Origin: Chitinophagaceae bacterium
GTDB lineage: Bacteria; Bacteroidota; Bacteroidia; Chitinophagales; Chitinophagaceae
Direction: 5' to 3'
DNA length: 64,000 nucleotides
NCBI GenBank assembly: GCA_947456805.1
Contig: CANGTN010000001.1
Location: 62,001 to 126,000, forward strand
The stretch's first letter is position 1. Each line of letters opens with the position of its first letter. Made by a program: the position numbers and the translations under genes. The notes below the pieces were generated by a model. It had not been told where the DNA came from and ran no database searches. It saw only the letters and a list, made by a program, of their open reading frames with translations. Below, one piece after another: positions 36,163-39,012 of the stretch.

Positions 36163-36215
36163 GTAAAATACTTTGAGCGACAAAGATAAACGCAGGTTAG
36201 CAAAGTTGGAGAAAG

Positions 36216-36534
36216 CGTCATTGCGAGGAACGAAGCAATCTTTATTTCACGCAAAGCAACAATGAAAGCAAAGTCCGCAACGAAAACCTTTGTGTTATTC
36301 GAGCCTTCGTGGTAAATACAAGTTTAAAAAGTTCAAAGGTTGAAAAGGTTGAAAACAAAACGTCATTGCGAGGAACGAAGCAATCTTGGTTTCACGCAAA
36401 GGAACAACGATAGCAAAGCACGCAACGAAAATCTTTGTGCGCTTTGTGCTTTAGTGGTAAATACAAATTTAAAAAGTTCAAAAGGTTTAAGAGGTTGAAA
36501 AACAAAACGTCATTGCGAGGAACGAAGCAATCTT
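36216..36534. repeat. Tandem about 146-bp intergenic repeat, 2 full units plus a partial third
   Basis: CGTCATTGCGAGGAACGAAGCAATCTT at 36216, 36361 and 36508, with intervening sequence also conserved. Confidence 0.9.
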
Positions 36535-36578
36535 TTAGATATTACCCTTTTTTATTAATCAAAAAACTATAAAAAATT

Positions 36579-36770
36579 TTATTGCTTATCGCTTTTTCCT
36601 AATAGAGATCCTAGAATTGCAAATATTGCACCAACCGTACCACCACCAATCCAAACAATACTTTTAGACCAAAATTGACCTACTGAAAAGTCGGTTTGTG
36701 AACCACAACCAACAATAACCAACATAAACCCAAAAATGAAACCCAAGAGAGCAGATTTTTCTTTTTTCAT
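36579..36770 (-). CDS. Small hypothetical membrane protein
   Basis: 63 aa; two hydrophobic Gly-rich segments. Confidence 0.55.
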   Translation of the reverse strand: MKKEKSALLGFIFGFMLVIVGCGSQTDFSVGQFWSKSIVWIGGGTVGAIFAILGSLLGKSDKQ

Positions 36771-36790
36771 AATATTTTCTTTTGTAATGT

Positions 36791-37276
36791 TTATTTAAAT
36801 GAAAATAATATTGATATGATTGATATGATGAGTGCAACTATACCAAGCTTATAAGATGCCCTTACAGCATCATTTGGATTATACCAGTAAAACGGAAAAA
36901 AATACCAAAAACGAGTCGTTAATGAAATGTCAAGTTCTTTGTTTTTATCTTCCTTTGAAAGCCCTAATTCACTTAATGAGTGATAGTTTAATCCAATCTG
37001 ATTTGCTTTAAGCCCTTTACTATTTCCCGAGCAAACTAAACGATAAATTTTTTTACCATTGGACTCAACTTTAATATATCGTCTTGTACCAACCATATAA
37101 CCAAAAAAATCGGTCTCAGTTGATTTTGGGAATAAACTAGATATTAAAGAATTCTCAATAAATGCCTTGTCAGAAAAGCTTTCATCATAACAATCGTTTT
37201 TTATTTTTAAAAAACCTTCACCATCATTTTGGGCGTTTTCAGATACTATTATTTTTAATGTCAGTTTTGTTTTCAT
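36791..37276 (-). CDS. Hypothetical protein with C-terminal TM anchor
   Basis: 161 aa; soluble domain followed by KLGIVALIISIISILFSFK. Confidence 0.6.
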   Translation of the reverse strand: MKTKLTLKIIVSENAQNDGEGFLKIKNDCYDESFSDKAFIENSLISSLFPKSTETDFFGYMVGTRRYIKVESNGKKIYRLVCSGNSKGLKANQIGLNYHSLSELGLSKEDKNKELDISLTTRFWYFFPFYWYNPNDAVRASYKLGIVALIISIISILFSFK

Positions 37277-37288
37277 GTATTTTGATGT

Positions 37289-38485
37289 TTAATTATAGTA
37301 TGCCGTGTATTTGAATTCGCCATTTTCCTTAAGTCCACCATCTTTATAATTGGCTTGTATAATATATATATCACTACCAAAAAATTTATCCCTGAGTAAA
37401 GAAAACTTCCAGTCAGAATCTTCTGATGGAAATCCATGTAGTACTATTTTATTTTCACCAACTACATCCCATTTGCCCTTATTATATACTTCTGTAAATC
37501 TGTATCCAGCATCAGTGTAATCAACCTCACCTTGTGCAAAAGTTCCATCATCATAAAGTACTAAACCCATTTTAAAACCACCAGTATTAGTAAAAAAAGT
37601 GTTTTTGTATTTTTTATCTATTTGTCTTATTTTATTTAATCTCTGTTTCTCGGCCTCGCTTTTTCTTAATTCTTCCCTTGCCAATGAAATCTCAGGCATA
37701 TATCTTTGAGAAAGCTCATTTAGATATTGTTTTGAGAGTTTTAAAACGAAAAATGGTTTGTCGAACTTGGATAAGTAGTCAATAAAGTTGCCTGCTAAAA
37801 TTAATATATTGGTAGTGTTTATATCATTTGCGACAAACTTTAACCCCTTTGACAGCTTAAATTTGTCTAAAAATTGTAGGCTCACCTCTGTAAATCTTCT
37901 GGATGATTCTTTATTCGTACTTGTATCAATCCCAATAAATCGGTTCGTATTATTAATGATATAATCAAACCTCTTATTCAAAAGTTCTTCATTTGCAACG
38001 GATGGAAAATTTGAAATGTCTTTCTTATCAGTTTGCATAAATCTTGCAAACTCCATAAAATATGTTTGTGCTAAAATTGTAGCACATTTAATATTGTTTG
38101 CATCAATACTCAAACACTTCTCACTAAAATAATATGTACTATCATAATAGTTTTTAAATTGAGTTGTATTTTTGATACTATTATTTGCTTTGTCAAAAAA
38201 ACAATTTTCATATATAGATTGGTCGTTAACACCACTATATAATCTTGCTAAGTAGTAATAATAATTTGCATTTGGTTTTTTTTCATCAATCTTCATTTTA
38301 CGATACTCAGATATTAGTGTCTCTGTTACTTTAAGCTGTTCAACAGGATCTTTAGTTGTGTTAATACAACTATCTTGGTAGGCTCTATGCTTTTCAATAT
38401 TATTAATATCTATATTCTCTAAAGGGGATTTACAAGAGTAGAAGCACACTAAAATTAATAGTGGTAACAGGCAAAGTCTTTTCAT
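37289..38485 (-). CDS. Hypothetical lipoprotein with helical repeat-like N-terminal region
   Basis: LLPLLILVCFYSC lipobox; helical central region; beta-rich C-terminus. Confidence 0.65.
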   Translation of the reverse strand: MKRLCLLPLLILVCFYSCKSPLENIDINNIEKHRAYQDSCINTTKDPVEQLKVTETLISEYRKMKIDEKKPNANYYYYLARLYSGVNDQSIYENCFFDKANNSIKNTTQFKNYYDSTYYFSEKCLSIDANNIKCATILAQTYFMEFARFMQTDKKDISNFPSVANEELLNKRFDYIINNTNRFIGIDTSTNKESSRRFTEVSLQFLDKFKLSKGLKFVANDINTTNILILAGNFIDYLSKFDKPFFVLKLSKQYLNELSQRYMPEISLAREELRKSEAEKQRLNKIRQIDKKYKNTFFTNTGGFKMGLVLYDDGTFAQGEVDYTDAGYRFTEVYNKGKWDVVGENKIVLHGFPSEDSDWKFSLLRDKFFGSDIYIIQANYKDGGLKENGEFKYTAYYN

Positions 38486-38569
38486 TTTTTTATTTTAAAG
38501 AATTTAAATAGAGAATAAATAACAATTACAAATAAATTTCAATTAAAACTATTCTTTATTGTTTTAAAA

Positions 38570-38607
38570 GATTATTTTGCCACTTTAATGATTATTTTAC
38601 TACTTTT
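38570..38607. promoter_or_regulatory. 20-bp-period direct repeat, candidate operator of the HTH regulator
   Basis: GATTATTTTGCCACTTTA and GATTATTTTACTACTTTT directly upstream of the HTH gene start. Confidence 0.5.
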
Positions 38608-38612
38608 AAAGC

Positions 38613-38966
38613 ATGAATAATATTGGAGATACAATAAAAAAATTTAGAGAGTTAAAAAATTTTACAAGAGAAAAAATTGCTGCAGAATTGAAAATGAGTC
38701 TCAGTAATTATAGTAAAATTGAAAGGGGAGAAATTGACCTAACGCTTTCTCGAATTAATCAGATTGCTAATGTTTTAGAAATTGATACATCACAAATTTT
38801 AAATTTTGATGCTACTCAGATATTTAACATATCAAACAATAAATTAGTACAAGGAATTGGTGCAAAAGCAGAAAACATGCATTTTCATAGCGATGATTAT
38901 AAAGAAAAATATATCGTTATGCTTGAGAAAGAAATTGAGAGATTAAAATCAGAAAAAATCAAATAG
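38613..38966 (+). CDS. XRE-family helix-turn-helix regulator
   Basis: IKKFRELKNFTREKIAAELKMSLSNYSKIERGEIDLTLSRINQIANVLEID. Confidence 0.92.
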   Translation: MNNIGDTIKKFRELKNFTREKIAAELKMSLSNYSKIERGEIDLTLSRINQIANVLEIDTSQILNFDATQIFNISNNKLVQGIGAKAENMHFHSDDYKEKYIVMLEKEIERLKSEKIK

Positions 38967-39012
38967 ACAGCTAATTAGATTGTGGGCTCAAATACATCTA
39001 ATTCAATATCCA

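Follow-up and report, generated by a model that had tools for sequence, protein, structure and literature searches.

A probably horizontally acquired islet with a conserved XRE regulator, a candidate operator and exchangeable envelope cargo in Chitinophagaceae

The DNA analysed here (the window) is a 64,000-nucleotide stretch from a Chitinophagaceae bacterium whose genome is available as a 2.4-Mb assembly of 128 contigs. Between the genes for TerC (PF03741) and PyrD (PF01180), both confirmed by Pfam, the ORF list gives three genes on the minus strand, coding for proteins of 63 aa (36579–36770), 161 aa (36791–37276) and 398 aa (37289–38485), and a divergent gene on the plus strand (38613–38966) coding for a 117-aa regulator of the XRE/HTH_3 type. 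An earlier note on this DNA had described the same four ORFs and the same divergent layout, and its coordinates are exact. The gaps between the leftward genes measure 12 and 20 bp, as tight as the note had reported, and we infer from this spacing that the three genes form one operon. The regulator and the 398-aa gene are separated by a divergent intergenic region of 127 bp. As a control for ORF length, ATG-initiated ORFs were counted in 500 dinucleotide-preserving shuffles of the module segment. ORFs of at least 161 aa never appeared in the 500 shuffles and those of at least 117 aa had a mean of 0.006 per shuffle, while those of at least 63 aa had a mean of 0.47, so that the length of the 63-aa ORF alone is not significant.

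The 398-aa protein (minus strand) carries the lipobox ILVCFYSC, from which it is predicted to be an exported lipoprotein, as the earlier note had proposed. Its body is probably helical and TPR-like, with a C-terminal region that is probably beta-rich. Pfam returned TPR_17 (E 0.033) and NlpE (E 0.037), each below cutoff; the NlpE match of the C-terminus reaches 15.3 bits against a cutoff of 22 over 50 residues and does not place the protein in that family. No relative was found in 299 family genomes or in plasmids, and no close relative in genome_contigs or IMG/VR, where the scans used short peptide seeds that detect close relatives only. A weak match in G030 was dismissed because it lies antisense within another gene. 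Hydropathy shows a single hydrophobic segment in the 161-aa protein, at about residues 137–161, and none at its N-terminus, in line with the C-terminal anchor suggested before; the protein is predicted to be tail-anchored, with a soluble domain that is probably cytoplasmic. Its tail, with a W-x-N-P...AVR stretch before the membrane helix, may resemble those of other bacterial membrane proteins. It likewise lacks relatives in the family genomes, plasmids and phages, and close ones in genome_contigs and IMG/VR; two weak order-level matches (G392 and G448) were judged to be due to chance. The 63-aa protein, first read as a two-helix membrane protein, does have two hydrophobic segments, but the first of them ends in a lipobox-like IVGC, and the protein may instead be a small lipoprotein. 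The search for its relatives covered IMG/VR and the family libraries and detected none.

In Pfam and NCBIfam, no match of the three cargo proteins exceeds a curated cutoff, and Pfam finds no Lipocalin_4 domain in any of them. Moreover, they match no PADLOC defence model and nothing convincing in PHROGs, which agrees with the earlier statement that no family could be recognised for them. No solved structure resembles the cargo by sequence. AF2 models built without an alignment were poor (mean pLDDT 43–44), and Foldseek with the poor model of the 398-aa protein returned nothing at E<0.001. An Rfam search found no structured RNA.

We compared the locus with the other available members of the genus. 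In G011, the nearest genus mate (its PyrD is 94% identical to that of the window), terC and pyrD are adjacent without the module, and both blastn and the alignment place 64 bp where the window has ∼2.8 kb. The blastn blocks, 88% identical on each side, end at 36191 and 39012, which delimits the inserted segment as 36192–39011. In G237 and G301, pyrD and terC are also adjacent without the module, with gaps of ∼14 and ∼169 bp, and altogether the module is present in 1 of the 10 genus genomes. Among 308 sliding windows of 2.4 kb across the 64 kb, none has a GC content as low as that of the module (28.4%). The empty sites in genus mates, together with an AT content unmatched by any other 2.4-kb stretch in the window, indicate a lineage-specific insertion, and the simplest reading is that the module was gained in the window's lineage. 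The empty terC–pyrD site that the earlier note had proposed to look for thus exists in three genus mates, and it supports the view that the module, associated with the envelope, is specific to its lineage and probably came in by horizontal transfer. Neither mobility genes nor inverted-repeat ends can be seen near the window copy.

The inserted segment also contains, to the left of the cargo, a ∼145-nt repeat in two complete copies and one partial copy (36212–36540, plus strand), with exact cores CATTGCGAGGAACGAAGCAATC at 36219, 36364 and 36511. The module had been described as flanked by repeats; however, copies are present on its left side only, and it is therefore not bracketed as a repeat-bounded mobile cassette would be. 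As G011 lacks these copies at this place, they either arrived together with the inserted segment or entered it. The repeat is dispersed, with 14 matches in G000 (copies lie on contigs C4, C81, C13, C54, C14, C123 and C9), 16 in G011 and 13 in G301, compared with 0–1 in the seven other genus members, and many copies are located between core genes, several at identical places in G000 and G011. We considered the repeats as transposon ends and rejected this, since they occur on one side only and many lie between core genes; the cores are not supported as strong hairpins either.

Copies of the same repeat lie on both sides of a second XRE cassette in G000, the genome to which the window belongs (L047 2679–5329, contig C4), and in G011 (L045 4634–7285, contig C24). 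In this cassette, the XRE gene is divergent from genes for a 178-aa TIR/CAP12-like protein and a 540-aa NHL-repeat protein with a type 9 sorting tail. The cassettes of these two species are 98.5% identical over 2656 bp, whereas the neighbouring DNA is 88–91% identical, and this excess indicates a recent transfer. Its position between copies suggests the idea that the ∼145-nt repeats may mark or serve recombination. Beside the G000 cassette (L047 1854–2566), a nucleotidyltransferase matching PADLOC PDC-S09 is accompanied by a 130-aa HEPN-like partner; this pair is not found beside the G011 copy within the sequence examined.

The 117-aa regulator belongs to HTH_3 (E 4e-11; 43.1 bits against a Pfam cutoff of 23). 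It also matches the PADLOC profiles HTH_VI, control-protein and capH, and weakly the hipB-type antitoxin of NCBIfam. Among 399 family genomes, close orthologues were found in three other genera, with identities of 79% (G202), 73% (G154) and 72% (G285), and the next full-length matches reach ∼40% or less. The four regulators align over their full length, including the C-terminal helix. A fragment located at the edge of a contig in G033, 54% identical over 52 residues, may be a further member of this close group. For comparison, PyrD of the same genomes is 72, 70 and 57% identical to that of the window; the 72% value refers to a gene divided between two contigs, of which the longer piece was compared. 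Because the regulator is at least as conserved as this core enzyme and is sporadically present, its distribution fits spread by horizontal transfer. Of the distant paralogues (∼40%), those of G113, G300 and G292 face lipoproteins and others do not; thus, the tight association with lipoproteins appears particular to the close group. In G113 (L043 4414–8739) and G300 (L134 1588–5753), which belong to the same genus, the paralogue faces tandemly duplicated gene pairs, each coding for a lipoprotein and a carboxypeptidase-regulatory-like protein. Other relatives from the broad family (L050 and L060, in G089 and G124) are divergent beside DNA methyltransferase genes of the type III restriction-modification-like kind.

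Immediately 5' of the XRE start codon, all four modules carry a direct repeat of the form TTTGCTACTTT-AATGATTAT-TTTGCTACTTTT, which in the window is TTTTGCCACTTTAATGATTATTTTACTACTTTT, with a 20-bp period, at 38575–38607 (plus strand). We consider this repeat a candidate operator. In the best block, 17–18 of 18 positions match across the four, and none of 1000 shuffles was as good; the repeat is missing from the five more distant XRE genes checked. When up to two mismatches were allowed, the pattern occurred four times in the 399 family genomes, once each in the window, G154, G202 and G285 and always at the XRE gene; as it had been built from these same four sites, the independent part of this result is the uniqueness and the single copy. 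The pattern was found neither in the other 395 family genomes nor in viral contigs. With a single-copy site found nowhere else, the regulator would be expected to control nothing beyond its own module, and the candidate site marks a dedicated, putative regulator–operator pair.

Part of this conservation may be that of a promoter. According to the Bacteroidota promoter consensus and its position (PMC9723704, PMC7366714), the second repeat contains the –7 box TAnnTTTG, exactly in three of the four modules and with one mismatch in the window, where the second copy holds the –7-like box TACTTTTA. The first repeat contains TTTG near –33 (ATTG in G202), and both boxes thus coincide with the repeat. 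In three of the four modules, that of the window included, the XRE ATG falls at the predicted +1, so that a leaderless transcript is predicted. The shared bases extend beyond the boxes, and this, together with the uniqueness of the pattern, argues for an operator in addition to a promoter. On the cargo strand, no exact TAnnTTTG box is present in any of the four modules, and repression and activation of the cargo are therefore both compatible with the sequence. A scan for sigma-70 promoters gave matches no more frequent than in shuffles, this being the wrong promoter type here.

The earlier note had asked whether the regulator and its three targets occur together elsewhere. The combination of the HTH gene with those for 398, 161 and 63 aa was found nowhere else, but the regulator with its repeat recurs facing lipoprotein or small-membrane genes. 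This chassis (XRE orthologue, 20-bp-period repeat and divergent lipoprotein/small-membrane operon) is present in the window, G154, G202 and G285. The G154 cargo consists of a 149-aa Lipocalin_4 lipoprotein (PF13648, 24.5 bits against a cutoff of 22.4) and proteins of 90 and 64 aa, the 90-aa protein being hydrophobic at its N-terminus and showing a DnaJ-type zinc motif that stays below cutoff. G202 has lipoproteins of 117 and 191 aa, and G285 a 138-aa membrane protein followed by lipoproteins of 72 and 140 aa. No similarity is detectable between the cargoes, that of the window included; nothing in the other three modules corresponds to the 161-aa protein, and no DNA similarity between modules is detectable beyond the regulator and the control region.

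In G154, the module lies within an IS1595-family element (L041 1–3040, contig C133), with the transposase on one side of it and the opposite end of the element on the other; the element is bounded by 28-bp inverted repeats matching at 26 of 28 positions. This element contains a short ribbon-helix-helix-like ORF, the transposase and four or five passengers, including the XRE/lipocalin-lipoprotein module. It is the most similarly arranged relative of the window module; unlike it, the window copy has neither a transposase nor such ends. On the contig of G202 there are genes for a BT4734-like primase/AAA protein and for a C5 DNA methylase, and an HTH_17 protein lies near the G285 module; these neighbours are suggestive of mobile DNA in both cases, short of proof.

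Passenger genes on transposons are known, and the window regulator is an ordinary HTH_3 protein. Like phage repressors and restriction control proteins, it combines the HTH_3 fold with a divergent layout and a repeated site over its own promoter; unlike them, it faces an operon for envelope proteins. XRE proteins usually bind palindromes, whereas the candidate operator here repeats directly and shows no obvious palindrome, which counts against it and is a further difference from those systems. As in G154, where the first cargo gene encodes a Lipocalin_4 (PF13648) lipoprotein, the window cargo starts with an exported lipoprotein whose C-terminal region is possibly of the beta-barrel type; it differs in lacking a Lipocalin match and in its N-terminal part, which is long and helical. 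The envelope-stress lipoprotein NlpE shares only the weak local match mentioned above, and its overall architecture is different.

The window copy is an insertion, its regulator has orthologues in three genera, their site is conserved and private, the cargo turns over and one relative is carried by a transposon, in a comparison of four modules. The reading that we favour, and hold to be probable, is that of a horizontally acquired, self-regulated islet composed of a conserved XRE–operator chassis and a divergent, exchangeable envelope cargo. The XRE protein, of the repressor type, would bind the tandem-repeat operator over its own promoter and set its own level through autoregulation. From the same 127-bp control region it would hold down the cargo operon, with its exported lipoprotein, tail-anchored inner-membrane protein and small membrane protein or lipoprotein, until a signal relieves this control, and the released cargo would then alter the cell envelope. 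The chassis would travel on mobile elements and pick up different lipoprotein cargo. Putative local autoregulation is the part of this scheme that we consider very likely; that the XRE protein represses the cargo, and does not activate it, is reasonably probable.

Small proteins of the XRE type often serve as antitoxins or defence regulators, and the locus could be read as a toxin-antitoxin-like or abortive-infection operon in which the XRE protein is the antitoxin or repressor and one of the small membrane proteins is a toxin that acts on the membrane and is released upon loss of the XRE protein. The PADLOC and hipB-type matches of the regulator and the small membrane proteins of the operon are in accordance with this, but the HTH profile matches are generic, the regulator is divergent from the cargo rather than co-operonic, profile searches place the cargo in no toxin or defence family and the cargo of the relatives consists mostly of exported lipoproteins. 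We thus regard this explanation as unlikely. The absence of cargo relatives, the AT-richness, the lack of mobility genes or ends and the presence in a single genome of the genus would also be expected of a decaying islet left behind by a mobile element, with cargo that serves no function at present. However, every ORF is intact and tightly spaced, the shuffles show that ORFs of such length are not expected by chance, and the regulator and its site are conserved across genera, which makes decay quite unlikely.

It could also be imagined that a lipoprotein with an NlpE/lipocalin-like domain detects envelope stress and passes the signal on to the XRE regulator by way of the tail-anchored 161-aa protein. 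The NlpE match of the 398-aa C-terminus, the Lipocalin_4 domain of the G154 lipoprotein and the probably cytoplasmic domain of the window membrane protein would suit such envelope sensing, but the first is below cutoff, the 161-aa protein is confined to the window module among the four, and a conserved regulator combined with unrelated putative sensors fits specific signalling poorly. This possibility appears very doubtful to us. For the self-regulated islet that we prefer, a role of the cargo in exclusion of, or protection against, phages or other elements is a tentative guess, suggested by its location (envelope lipoproteins on mobile DNA) and its rapid turnover.

In our literature search, no description of such a module was found; what appears to be new is the combination of a conserved, putative regulator–operator pair with interchangeable lipoprotein operons across several genera. 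Mobile islets are rich in one-off membrane proteins that family searches fail to place. Here, the regulator and its site can be placed even though the cargo cannot, and the two in combination lead to matching modules in further genera. The XRE site is thus a short DNA handle for collecting more cargo and testing its function, and the regulator–site pair makes the regulation directly testable. It is conceivable, with somewhat less than even confidence on our part, that the chassis moves between genera and takes up envelope lipoprotein operons unrelated to one another; new surface genes with a rapid turnover would thereby arrive already controlled. If true, this would give mobile DNA a general and safe means of transporting cargo that alters the surface.
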